A stretch of 42,672 nt of DNA from assembly GCA_030830695.1 (NCBI GenBank), contig JAURML010000134.1:1-42672 (forward strand). The letters run 5' to 3'. This document shows, one piece after another, positions 12,301 to 15,965 of this stretch. The DNA is from Caenibius sp. (GTDB taxonomy: Bacteria; Pseudomonadota; Alphaproteobacteria; Sphingomonadales; Sphingomonadaceae). Below the pieces are notes generated by a model. The model had not been told where the DNA came from. It worked only from the letters and a program-made list of their open reading frames with translations, and ran no database searches. Positions within the stretch are counted from its first letter, which is position 1. Every line of letters begins with the position of its first letter. Both the position numbers and the translations under genes were made by a program.

Positions 12301-12387
12301 GCGGTCGTGGCGGAACTGGTAGACGCGCAACGTTGAGGTCGTTGTGGGCGAAAGCCCGTGGAAGTTCGAGTCTTCTCGACCGCACCA
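12301..12387 (+). tRNA. tRNA-Leu, anticodon GAG
   Basis: 87 nt including encoded CCA (12385-12387). Acceptor stem GCGGTCG pairs with CGACCGC. The anticodon stem CAACG/CGTTG flanks the loop TTGAGGT with GAG at positions 34-36, reading CTC/CTT leucine codons. The long variable arm (TGGGCGAAAGCCCGT) is the class II feature of tRNA-Leu. The T-arm is GTTCGAGTC. No gene follows on this strand for more than 5 kb, only remnants. Confidence 0.96.
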
Positions 12388-12422
12388 GACAGTCAGCAGC
12401 AGACACTGATCCTCGCCTTCGG

Positions 12423-12629
12423 GCGGAGCATGACGGGGCGAGCGGTGCGGTCATCCGCGAATACATCTGGCTGGGCGACACAGTGATTGCTATGGTGGAT
12501 GGCATGGCAAGCGCGCCTGCATACAGCTTCGTGCATACGGGGCATCTGGCGGAACCCCTGCTGGTTGCCGATGCGGCGGGCGCGGTGGTCTCCTCCATCA
12601 CGCGCGATCCGTGGGGCAATGCCATCCTG
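12423..12629 (+). pseudogene. RHS/YD-repeat protein remnant
   Basis: Continuous frame of about 69 codons starting 36 bp after the tRNA CCA. It reads SGAVIREYIWLGDTVIAMVDG, then PAYSFVHTGHLAEPLLVADAAGAVV and DPWGNA. This matches the end of the RHS core, where the consensus has a REYxWLGDxPVAxxDG strand, a YYxHTDHLGTPxLxTDAxGxVV strand and a DPWG/PFG motif. A full RHS protein exceeds 1000 residues, so this is an internal fragment with no start or toxin tip. Location directly behind a tRNA suggests residue of a former integration or recombination. Which RHS subfamily it came from cannot be told. Confidence 0.7.
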
Positions 12630-12632
12630 CTG

Positions 12633-12664
12633 GCGCAGAGGCCGCAAAAGAACGCAGAGAATAT
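12633..12664 (+). repeat. Possible interspersed GCAGAGGCCGC..AACGCAGAGA element
   Basis: The stretch GCGCAGAGGCCGC, then AAAAGAACGCAGAGAA, has two copies of a CGCAGAG core. It is similar to short intergenic elements I recall from sphingomonad and other proteobacterial genomes. It joins directly to the RHS remnant. No second copy is in the window, so repeat status is from memory only. Confidence 0.35.
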
Positions 12665-12711
12665 GGGCGCGGCGTGCAGCAAGTGATCATGAGGGTAAGC
12701 GCGTGGCGCGG

Positions 12712-12962: not shown

Positions 12963-14051
12963 TCAGTCGATGCGCAGCCAGCCCGCGATGCACCGCGAAA
13001 GGCCCGGCAGCGCGGCCAGCCGTGCCAGCCATGGTCCGCCCCGCGCACTCACGCCCGCAGCGGTGATCGCCTGCGCCAGGGCGAGGCGCGGGCGAAGCCG
13101 TGCGGCCATGGCTTTGCGGAAGCGTTCGGCCCCGCCTGCGCCGTGCGCCAGCCAGTGCTGCACCGCCAGCTCAGCGCTGGCCAGGGCAATGCCTATCCCC
13201 TCCCCGGCGAGCGAGGGGATGACCCCGGCCTGATCGCCCAGCCGGAACAGGCCGGGTGCACCCCGGCCGGCATACCAGCCATAGGGCACCTGCCCGATGG
13301 CATCGACGCGCGGCTGCCCCGGCAAGGCGGCCATGCGCAGGCCGAGCGGCCCGGCCCGGCCGGCGAGTTGATCGAACAGGCGCAGCGGATCGCCTCCGGC
13401 CTCGGCAAGGCGGCGCTTGCGCAGGGCGAGGCAGAGATTGGCGCTGCCATCTTCCTGCAGCACTATCCCGGCATAGCCGCCCGGAAACAGGTGCATCTCG
13501 ATCGTGCCCGTCAGCTCTGCCGCCATGGCAGCGGGAGGGGCAAAGCGGGTGCGCAGGCCGAGGAAGGGGTTCTGCCCGGCGGCGGCGCGGGGCCGCCGGG
13601 GCAGGCCGCGCAGGTCATGCTTGCCGGTGGCCAGAAAGATGCTGTCCGCGCGCAGCGCCCGCCCGTCATCCGCGCGGAAGGCGCCCTCTTCATGGCGCAC
13701 GGTGGCATGCCGGATCTCTGCGCCGAGCGCACGGGCGCGGTCAAGCAGCAGGCTGTCGAGCCTGCGCCGCGAGAGGCCCATGGCCGCTGCGGGCAGGCTG
13801 CCCGACCATTCCTGTGTGCCCGCGGTGATGCGTAGCCGCCGGACCGGGTGACCGCCCGCTTCACCGGGGGCAAGGCCCAGTGCCTGCAGGCGTTCAAGCG
13901 TCCGCCAGCTGAGGAAGCCGCCGCACAATGCGTCACCCGGCGTTGCCTGCCGTTCGTAGACGATGGGGGCTATGCCGTTGGCGAGCAGCAGGATCGCTGC
14001 GGCGGAACCGGCCGGGCCGGCGCCCACGATGATCGGCGGCGCTTCGTTCAT
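12963..14051 (-). CDS. FAD-dependent oxidoreductase of the type III PKS cluster
   Basis: 362 residues, geranylgeranyl-reductase/UbiH-like flavoprotein. The N-terminal dinucleotide motif is GAGPAGSAAA (about 11-20), with ERQATPGDALCGG following. A GD motif near the C-terminus, FRLGDQAGVIPSLAGEGI, contacts FAD. Its ATG overlaps the polyketide synthase stop (ATGA), so the two are coupled. By analogy with the Streptomyces srsABC set (type III PKS, methyltransferase, flavoprotein hydroxylase) it probably hydroxylates or oxidises the polyketide ring toward a quinone. Saturation of an isoprenoid tail is the alternative. Confidence 0.85.
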   Translation of the reverse strand: MNEAPPIIVGAGPAGSAAAILLLANGIAPIVYERQATPGDALCGGFLSWRTLERLQALGLAPGEAGGHPVRRLRITAGTQEWSGSLPAAAMGLSRRRLDSLLLDRARALGAEIRHATVRHEEGAFRADDGRALRADSIFLATGKHDLRGLPRRPRAAAGQNPFLGLRTRFAPPAAMAAELTGTIEMHLFPGGYAGIVLQEDGSANLCLALRKRRLAEAGGDPLRLFDQLAGRAGPLGLRMAALPGQPRVDAIGQVPYGWYAGRGAPGLFRLGDQAGVIPSLAGEGIGIALASAELAVQHWLAHGAGGAERFRKAMAARLRPRLALAQAITAAGVSARGGPWLARLAALPGLSRCIAGWLRID

Positions 14052-15118
14052 GCCCGGCTGAAGGCGAAGCCTTCGGCGGCGAGGCCCGGCCCGAAGGCCA
14101 TGGCGATGCCTGCCGCATGGCGCGGCCGGGCCATGATCTCGGCCAGCACGAACAGGATGGTGGCCGAAGACATGTTGCCGAAGCCGGCCAGGACCGAACG
14201 TGAGGGGCGAAGCGCCGCAGGGTCAAGCGCCAGCCCGCCCTCCACCGCATCGACAATGGTGCGCCCGCCCGGGTGAACGGCCCAATCGAGCATGGCCGCG
14301 TCCTGTCCGGCCAGCAGCACTTCGCGCAACTCCGGTTCCTGCAAGGCCTCCGCGATGCGTGCGGGAACCTCGCCTGACAGGATCATGTCGAACCCCGTAT
14401 CGCCGATCGTCCACTGGATCAGCGCATCGCTGGCGGGCAGGGTGGTGCAGAAGAAGCGGTCAAGCCGCGTACCGCCCGGCCCGGCGCAGACCAGCGCTGC
14501 CGCCGCGCCGTCGCCGAACTGCATCGCGCCCAGCAGTACCTCCAGCCCGGAGCCTGACGGCAGGTGCAGCGAACACAGCTCCACCGTCACCACCAGGACA
14601 CGCGCCTGCGGGTCCGACCGGACGATATGATGGGCCACGCGCAGCGCCGCGATGCCGGCATAACAGCCCATGAAGCCCACCAGCGTGCGTTCGATGGCGG
14701 GGGAAAGGCCCAGCCTGCGGGCGATGATCTGGTCAATCCCGGGTGCAACAAAGCCGGTGCAGCTGGCGACCACCAGATGCGTGATGCCACCAAGCTCTGC
14801 CTGCCGGGAAAGGTCCGCAATCGCGGCGAGCGCCAGTTCGGGCGCCTCGCGGGTGTAGATCTCCATGCGCCGGGCGGTGGACGGGGCGGGGCGGGCGCGG
14901 AAGAACCCTTCGGCGCTGGTCGATGAGCGGCTGGCCCCATCGCCTGCCAGCACGGACCAGCGATGATCGATGCCCGAACGCCTGGCCATGCGCGTGAACA
15001 GCGCCCGTTCGCGCGACTGGCCCATCTGCTCCTCGGCCCAGCGGACATAGTCCTGATGCACGTCGTGCTCCGGCACCGCCTTGCCGATGGCCTGGATATG
15101 AGCCGCTGCATGCTGCAC
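14048..15118 (-). CDS. Type III polyketide synthase (chalcone/stilbene/alkylresorcinol synthase family)
   Basis: 356 residues, thiolase fold. Catalytic triad is visible: Cys152 in GFMGCYAG, His282 in VHPGGRTIVD and Asn315 in GFGNMSSAT. Extends an acyl-CoA starter with malonyl-CoA and cyclises it. The partners suggest a long-chain alkylresorcinol or pyrone type product. Start is GTG 15118; GGAAGG lies 12 nt upstream, which is long spacing, so a slightly different start is possible. The 142 bp between it and the methyltransferase show no gene and may hold a promoter. Coupled downstream to the flavoprotein. Confidence 0.93.
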   Translation of the reverse strand: MQHAAAHIQAIGKAVPEHDVHQDYVRWAEEQMGQSRERALFTRMARRSGIDHRWSVLAGDGASRSSTSAEGFFRARPAPSTARRMEIYTREAPELALAAIADLSRQAELGGITHLVVASCTGFVAPGIDQIIARRLGLSPAIERTLVGFMGCYAGIAALRVAHHIVRSDPQARVLVVTVELCSLHLPSGSGLEVLLGAMQFGDGAAAALVCAGPGGTRLDRFFCTTLPASDALIQWTIGDTGFDMILSGEVPARIAEALQEPELREVLLAGQDAAMLDWAVHPGGRTIVDAVEGGLALDPAALRPSRSVLAGFGNMSSATILFVLAEIMARPRHAAGIAMAFGPGLAAEGFAFSRA

Positions 15119-15260
15119 GATCGCTTGCGTCCTTCCGGAATGGCTGGCTGCGCAGCGACCATCGCCTGCTGCCAGTGACTCACTTCACCAATCATGCACC
15201 ATTATCGGCGCGGGCGCATTGGCCCAGGCTGAACCATGCCCGGTTATTGCGGCGGGGCCG

Positions 15261-15965
15261 TCAGCCGCGCAACCGTTCGACTGACAGCCTGAAGGGAATG
15301 TGGCGGCGAATACGAACGCCGTCGCGCGCAATTCCCGCATCTTCCAGTATCGGGCGCCATTCGTCCGCCCGGATGGACCGCGCTATGGAGAGCGTTCCAT
15401 CCTCGCGCACGATGCGATGCACGCGCATCAGCCGCGCCAGCAGGGGAAAGGCGCAGTAGGCGATGACGTGCCGGTCGAGATCGCTGACCAGCCAGCCGCA
15501 ACGCGCTTCATCCTCCATGAAGCGCAGGAAGGCGCGCAGCTGGTCCATGCTCATATGATGAGCGACCTGGCTGCTGATGATGAAGTCGAAACGCCCGGCC
15601 AGCGCCTGGTAATCGCCGGTCAGGAAGTCGATCGTTGGATCAGCGGGGGTTGCCGCGCGGGCGATCTGCCGGCTCAGGGGATTGAGATCGGTCCCGATCA
15701 GCTGCGCTGCGATCCCGCGCCTGCCTGCCCATGCGGCGATGGCGCGCAACATGTCGCCATGGCCGAAGCCGACGTCGAGCAGGCTGAAGGAGGTCATGTG
15801 CCGTGTCGCACGGCTCAGGAAACGCAGGGTTGGCCGCACTGTCAGCGTCCAGCGATTGACGCGCGAAAGATCGGCAAGAACGGCGGCATAGACCAGGGGG
15901 TCGATGGCCGGATCGTCCATCTGTTCGGGTTCGAAGGATCGCGTCGACAGGTCTCGCATCGTCAC
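15261..15965 (-). CDS. Class I SAM-dependent methyltransferase of the PKS cluster
   Basis: 234 residues. SAM-binding motif LLDVGFGHGDML (62-73), acidic residue after strand 2 in GTDLNPLSRQIA, then FDFIISSQVAHHM and the DLDRHVIAY stretch seen in UbiE-like enzymes acting on lipophilic rings. It lies upstream of, and on the same strand as, the type III PKS, so O- or C-methylation of the resorcinol product is the likely job. Substrate is inference. ATG 15965 (MTMRDLSTRSFEPEQMDD) fits family N-termini. Confidence 0.85.
   Translation of the reverse strand: MTMRDLSTRSFEPEQMDDPAIDPLVYAAVLADLSRVNRWTLTVRPTLRFLSRATRHMTSFSLLDVGFGHGDMLRAIAAWAGRRGIAAQLIGTDLNPLSRQIARAATPADPTIDFLTGDYQALAGRFDFIISSQVAHHMSMDQLRAFLRFMEDEARCGWLVSDLDRHVIAYCAFPLLARLMRVHRIVREDGTLSIARSIRADEWRPILEDAGIARDGVRIRRHIPFRLSVERLRG

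Follow-up and report, generated by a model that had tools for sequence, protein, structure and literature searches.

The closest described relatives of the gene group studied here are the hidABC cluster of Cyanobium sp. LEGE 06113, which is responsible for hierridin B, and an alkylresorcinol operon of the planctomycetes Gimesia maris and Rhodopirellula baltica. In hidABC and hid-like clusters, genes for a class I S-adenosylmethionine (SAM) methyltransferase (MT), a flavoprotein and a type III polyketide synthase (PKS) are adjacent, and the planctomycetal operon contains the same three kinds of gene. Similar steps (polyketide synthesis, methylation and oxidation) are encoded by srsABC of Streptomyces griseus and pkqABC of Mycobacterium smegmatis. 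Here we describe an MT, PKS and flavoprotein trio in Caenibius sp. (Sphingomonadaceae). It lies on contig JAURML010000134.1 of assembly GCA_030830695.1, which was analysed over its full length of 42,672 nucleotides (the window). The trio is probably an alphaproteobacterial phenolic-lipid trio of the hidABC type, and its product would be a hydroxylated, methylated 5-alkylresorcinol, as judged by analogy with the described systems.

Papers are cited below by PMC number for the passages available from each. Hierridin B is 5-pentadecylresorcinol with an extra ring hydroxyl and two O-methyl groups (PMC10896814). When expressed in C. glutamicum, the PKSs of G. maris, R. baltica and S. maiorica, encoded in the trio or a two-gene variant of it, formed alkylresorcinols. 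Pentadecyl- and/or heptadecylresorcinols, listed with masses of 320.27 and 348.30 for the 5-alkyl forms (Table 3 of PMC10896814), were the products of the planctomycete enzymes from such loci. The more distant PKS of S. ferox also formed alkylresorcinols, and two PKSs without an operon gave nothing. Addition of the G. maris MT and flavoprotein led to a methylated resorcinol, read as C-methylated (all PMC10896814).

Gene content and organization

Three open reading frames (ORFs) on the minus strand were found by an ORF check of the sequence, at the positions given in a preliminary description of this DNA. The gene order is MT-PKS-FAD, where FAD denotes the FAD-dependent oxidoreductase:

15261..15965, minus strand: class I SAM methyltransferase (MT) gene, 234 amino acids, W39 T42 Q133 V182 subtype
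15567..15569, minus strand: codon of MT Gln133, which precedes the His136-His137 pair by three residues
15119..15260, minus strand: 142-base gap from the MT stop to the PKS start, with the MT upstream of the PKS
14048..15118, minus strand: type III PKS gene, 356 amino acids, GTG start
14663..14665, minus strand: codon of the catalytic Cys152 of the PKS triad
14564..14566, minus strand: codon of PKS His185, aligned to PKS18 Asn208 and chalcone synthase (CHS) Thr197
14411..14413, minus strand: codon of PKS Trp236, aligned to CHS Gly256 (by offset) and PKS18 Leu266
14048..14051, minus strand: overlap of the PKS stop and the FAD start, 4 bases, ATGA
12963..14051, minus strand: FAD-dependent oxidoreductase (FAD) gene, 362 amino acids, probable ring hydroxylase from the halogenase / geranylgeranyl-reductase-like group

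The preliminary description had listed a complete Cys152-His282-Asn315 triad, an overlapping FAD oxidoreductase and a same-strand methyltransferase. The triad is present exactly as listed, in the numbering from the GTG start; the oxidoreductase overlaps the PKS gene at 14051-14048 and matches FAD_binding_3 (3.3e-10, above the Pfam cut-off); and the MT at 15261-15965 on the minus strand matches Methyltransf_25 (9e-11, above the cut-off), which assigns it to the class I SAM domain. The PKS carries both chalcone-synthase domains (PF00195, 3.5e-31; PF02797, 8e-23), and with the Cys-His-Asn triad it qualifies as a type III PKS. NCBIfam returned only matches below cut-off, namely DpgA for the PKS, PRK06202 for the MT and GG-red-SF for the flavoprotein. 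Protein searches of the source genome gave a single match apiece for the PKS, MT and FAD proteins.

Distribution in Sphingomonadaceae

The grouping of these genes is real and not due to chance, since 102 of the 198 remaining family genomes carry the same PKS type, 93 of them with MT and FAD alongside it. The sample comprised 199 Sphingomonadaceae genomes, our own included, with the genus represented by that genome alone. A PKS match was found in 125 of them: 103 of the trio type, at 51% identity or more to the window PKS (two of the 103 are fragments), and 22 of a more distant type. In the 93 genomes the three genes stand on one strand in the order PKS-MT-FAD. This bears out, for Sphingomonadaceae, the earlier remark that such trios are common.

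The MT-PKS-FAD order of the window was found on one strand in none of the 102 other genomes, five of which had an order that was not fully readable. The window spans an entire contig of a draft assembly with 200 contigs, so the order rests on the assembly of that single contig. Other departures from the usual layout were an MT between PKS and FAD but on the opposite strand, with FAD 4-6 kb beyond (G122, G043), adjacent PKS and FAD with the MT on a separate contig (G031), an MT in reverse orientation, 2.4 kb ahead of the PKS (G061), a broken trio locus (G026), and loci at or close to a contig end that lacked a partner or had it on a different contig (G123, G189, G096, G158). An in-frame stop within the MT was reported for two genomes, G063 and G133. 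Together with the broken trio of G026, these stops may mean that the pathway is being lost in places.

Of 398 genomes in a phylum sample, 11 contained the MT (E up to 1e-15): 9 were among the 19 listed from the same family and 2 among the 379 others. All trees were built after partial, duplicate or broken rows had been left out, and locus L254 was not used. In the FastTree phylogeny of the PKS, the window sequence branched first in a sphingomonad clade of 81 rows, the other 80 being united with support 87, and IQ-TREE likewise placed it first in a clade of 80 rows. Its end branch is long.

Relatives in other phyla

Cyanobium usitatum, used as a proxy for strain LEGE 06113, has adjacent homologues of all three proteins. 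Identities to the window proteins were low (PKS 40%, MT 32%, FAD 29%), and its order is MT-FAD-PKS, in contrast to that of the window; PKS-MT-FAD has also been found in cyanobacteria (PMC8086630). Homologous trios occur in Gimesia, Paludisphaera, Deinococcus radiodurans (as annotated) and others. Homology with the planctomycetal operon was checked with Gimesia sp. and Paludisphaera; that operon differs from the window in its MT-FAD-PKS order, and the MT of G. maris has been read as a C-methyltransferase.

A PKS match was present in 192 plasmid records. Eleven of these were opened, and in 10 of them all three partners were found near the PKS by annotation or profiles. The hosts were two Sphingobium, Novosphingobium, Microvirga, Methylobacterium, Falsirhodobacter, Psychrobacter, Paludisphaera, Deinococcus radiodurans and Microbacterium; the flavoprotein gene is short on the Microvirga plasmid and the PKS is not annotated on that of Microbacterium. 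The eleventh, a Streptomyces plasmid whose record carries no annotation, gave no MT or FAD profile match.

A scan of genome contigs yielded at least 80 loci from many phyla. These were chosen by patterns that included the FMGC and GNMSS motifs, so the conservation of both motifs among them is by construction. Across 93 loci (80 contig, 11 plasmid and two more), profiles placed MT and FAD both near the PKS in 61, in several orders; the profiles had been trained partly on plasmid loci that were then scored. MT-PKS-FAD on one strand was seen in none of the 93, among which several contigs are cut off and a few FAD matches are weak.

Several trio surroundings were recorded. On plasmid pLA3 of Novosphingobium pentaromativorans, genes for DUF2147, a carrier protein and a beta-ketoacyl synthase directly precede the trio PKS, and G061 likewise has a beta-ketoacyl synthase gene (L066:2141-4004 and L051:8655-9863). 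A carrier protein and ketosynthase in this position suggest starter supply as acyl carrier protein-bound acyl groups. The trio of Sphingobium indicum plasmid pSRL1 adjoins efflux genes (L067:1807-9050); PLSDB types this plasmid as mobilizable, and the trio may therefore travel between strains. In Deinococcus radiodurans (L064:3995-9080) the trio is annotated as PKS-MT-FAD, the FAD profile having missed the third gene, and has a glycosyltransferase gene and a phospholipase D-like gene as neighbours.

Active-site residues of the polyketide synthase

The 113 trio-type PKS rows, which include the window and in which at least six genomes are represented twice, all have Trp236, while 112 have His282 and 112 have Asn315. 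Equivalences to PKS18, the best PDB match of a 9-row PKS profile, were counted along the printed profile alignment. Ser317 aligns in this way to PKS18 Leu348 and would correspond to CHS Ser338. PKS18 accepts long-chain acyl-CoA. The CHS Thr197 equivalence of the His185 position is taken from PMC6274091.

A tryptophan at position 281 of ArsB has been tied to resorcinol rather than pyrone formation in the ArsB/ArsC pair (PMC6274091). Trp236 would occupy this position, as inferred from the Trp/Met spacing of 9. Because ArsC (3VS8/3VS9) did not appear among the best 60 matches in any of three PKS structure searches, the position could not be aligned directly.

Fold and likely role of the tailoring enzymes

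The flavoprotein model (predicted local distance difference test, pLDDT, 88.8) could be aligned with many proteins, among them halogenases (PltA: Z 36.0, root-mean-square deviation (rmsd) 2.6, 351 residues aligned), squalene epoxidase (Z 32.5) and 3-hydroxybenzoate 6-hydroxylase (Z 31.7). Its fold is close to those of phenol hydroxylases, halogenases, squalene epoxidase and QhpG, an aromatic hydroxylase that was the ninth Foldseek match. The top five matches of the sequence profile were halogenases or named as such.

For the MT model (pLDDT 96.6), BpumL (Z 20.2, rmsd 2.8, 208 aligned), CouO (Z 20.0, rmsd 2.9, 209 aligned) and NovO (Z 20.0, rmsd 2.9, 208 aligned) were effectively tied as the nearest folds. 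Just below them was CysG, which we take to be N-methyltransferase-like. The top Foldseek match was yeast Coq5 (TM-score 0.61). The His136-His137 pair is invariant across 48 rows. The fold matches of both models leave the reactions undecided: they are compatible with ring hydroxylation and O-methylation, and with nothing more specific.

A separate history for the methyltransferase

We called an MT out of line unless it lies between PKS and FAD and on the same strand as they do. The MT tree was built after seven such loci (G122, G043, G031, G061, one Novosphingobium plasmid and two Sphingobium plasmids) had been picked by their gene order. Their MTs formed one clade, with a Shimodaira-Hasegawa-like approximate likelihood ratio (SH-aLRT) support of 86-87 in IQ-TREE and a local support of 92 in FastTree. 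Approximately unbiased (AU) tests were run on 64 of the rows shared by the MT, PKS and FAD sets. With the window left out, the seven-locus grouping was rejected both by the PKS data (log-likelihood difference 128, p-AU 5e-4) and by the FAD data (log-likelihood difference 203, p-AU 2.5e-6).

Constraining the window MT to join the seven gave a log-likelihood 18.8 above that of the free search (p-AU 0.74). The free IQ-TREE search placed it with the MT of locus L053, beside the seven-MT clade, in an 11-row set (support 95; 92 in a second run), and FastTree with more rows did not resolve its placement. The residues W39 T42 Q133 V182 occur together in 8/8 out-of-line MTs, the window included, and in 1/102 others, the single in-line case being L053. 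From these alignments and trees, the MT has a history separate from that of PKS and FAD and was apparently exchanged independently of both. As its tree groups the out-of-line loci while the PKS and FAD data reject that grouping, the MT is probably an exchangeable part of the trio.

A second PKS type, paired with ICMT

The distant-type PKSs, present in 22 of the 199 family genomes, are 29-37% identical to the window PKS in the genome search and 27-34% identical to it in the ICMT-paired loci. An ORF resembling isoprenylcysteine carboxyl methyltransferase (ICMT) adjoins or overlaps the PKS in 16 of the 16 loci fetched out of these 22 (L032-L047); four of the ORFs were confirmed by Pfam, and the profile had been trained on 4 of the 16 loci that it scored. 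No flavoprotein of the trio type was found within the fetched 13-14 kb around these PKSs. The pair, which we presume to be BpsAB-like, shares with the window a type III PKS and a methyltransferase and differs in its ICMT partner, the neighbours of the window PKS being a class I MT and FAD. At position 185, an Ala or Ser in 15/15 ICMT-paired rows replaces the His of 113/113 trio-type rows.

The two PKS types were never found together (0/199 genomes), compared with about 11.4 expected if they were independent (P 2.7e-8, ancestry ignored). Since about ten candidates were scored per genome, a second PKS could be missed. Genus g54 contains one trio-type and two distant-type genomes.

Proposed pathway and alternatives

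By analogy with the described systems, the PKS would extend a long-chain fatty acyl thioester with three malonyl units and close the ring by aldol condensation to a 5-alkylresorcinol. The flavoprotein would then hydroxylate the ring, as its modelled fold and the extra hydroxyl of hierridin B suggest, and the MT would add one or more methyl groups to ring carbon or oxygen. The product is expected to remain in membranes, and a quinone is a possible end product.

Several observations weigh against this proposal. Ring hydroxylation by the flavoprotein or HidB is our inference, since in the available text of PMC8086630 the hierridin steps are given as a reduction and a methylation, with no hydroxylation; the planctomycete work left the role of FAD open in the passages available (PMC10896814). 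FAD identity to Cyanobium usitatum is just 29%, and phosphoethanolamine N-methyltransferases rank first for the MT sequence profile. The MT lies upstream across the 142-base gap, in which no gene was seen, and cotranscription of the trio is an assumption. The window PKS sequence alone has a rice enzyme as its best structure match. Trp236 had to be rejected as proof of resorcinol formation because it does not discriminate: it is also present in 15/15 ICMT-paired rows, and the Trp is conserved in an alignment that includes the pyrone maker PKS11 of M. tuberculosis (PMC9927152, figure legend). Our literature search, which covered few subscription papers, found no characterised product of a sphingomonad trio, in agreement with the preliminary description; sphingomonad type III PKS or alkylresorcinol clusters appear only as genome predictions in the passages available (PMC9611098, PMC9281055, PMC9723273).

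An alkylpyrone pathway, in which the PKS lactonises tri- or tetraketides like PKS18 or ArsC and its neighbours decorate the pyrone, is unlikely. PKS18, a pyrone maker, is the best solved match of the PKS profile and Trp236 is not exclusive to known resorcinol makers, but PKS18 has Leu where the window PKS family has Trp, and expressed trio homologues gave alkylresorcinols (PMC10896814). It is likewise unlikely that the flavoprotein acts as a halogenase, or as a reductase of an alkene or a ring, instead of as a hydroxylase. PltA, CmlS, FasV, Bmp2 and a geranylgeranyl-reductase-like protein are among its top matches by fold and by sequence, and reduction is the term used in PMC8086630. However, a canonical flavin-dependent halogenase was not supported, as an invariant Gly-Tyr-x-Gly stands where CmlS has GWVWMIP. 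The motifs W.W.[IVL]P and F.P.S.G were absent from all 37 FAD rows (0/37), and no column in residues 42-143 reached 40% lysine, although the halogenase lysine position was not mapped onto the alignment. We take both motifs and the catalytic lysine to be marks of halogenases.

A more far-reaching idea, which we regard as improbable, makes the trio a polyketide counterpart of ubiquinone. The flavoprotein would form a 1,4-quinol from the alkylresorcinol and a Coq5/CouO-like MT would add the ring methyl of a membrane redox lipid, with an MT unrelated to that of the actinobacterial polyketide-quinone pathway; exchange of MT subtypes would set the methyl pattern, and in sphingomonads the trio and the PKS-plus-ICMT pair would be alternatives that serve one function. 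Beyond the database titles, the reactions of CouO, NovO and Coq5 are assumed here. The literature search found no publication that combines polyketide quinones and alphaproteobacteria.

That the MT stands beside the PKS by chance, or that the gene order is an assembly artefact, is very unlikely. The draft state of the genome, an order without parallel elsewhere and the 142-base gap would fit such an explanation, but the MT is of the trio type, is the sole match in its genome and has the same four residues as the MTs of the seven other out-of-line loci. Least credible is a true srsABC/pkqABC operon whose homologous enzymes would make an O-methylated alkylbenzoquinone. The preliminary description had drawn the srsABC parallel: the same three activities and the likely chemistry fit, and PkqA and a Streptomyces homologue are also reported to carry the Trp (PMC9927152), but kinship was rejected because SrsB is of the ICMT type (PMC6669644) and the window MT is class I. 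Moreover, ICMT-paired PKSs form a separate type in the family. The trio thus appears to be a variant of the hidABC type, functionally analogous to srsABC without kinship to it.

Neighbouring genes

A dCTP deaminase gene upstream and a tRNA-Leu downstream showed no pathway-like link to the trio among the few neighbours tested. The tRNA-Leu (gag) lies within 12301-12686 and is overlapped by an ORF at 12333-12686, whose translation resembles an RHS-repeat remnant by eye and has no Pfam match.

Implications for the family

About half of the sampled Sphingomonadaceae genomes (103/199) retain this type of PKS, nearly always in a compact trio, and kinship with the hierridin and planctomycete trios supplies a concrete product to seek. 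The lack of overlap between the trio and the PKS-plus-ICMT pair, together with the separately inherited MT, suggests which part of the molecule varies.

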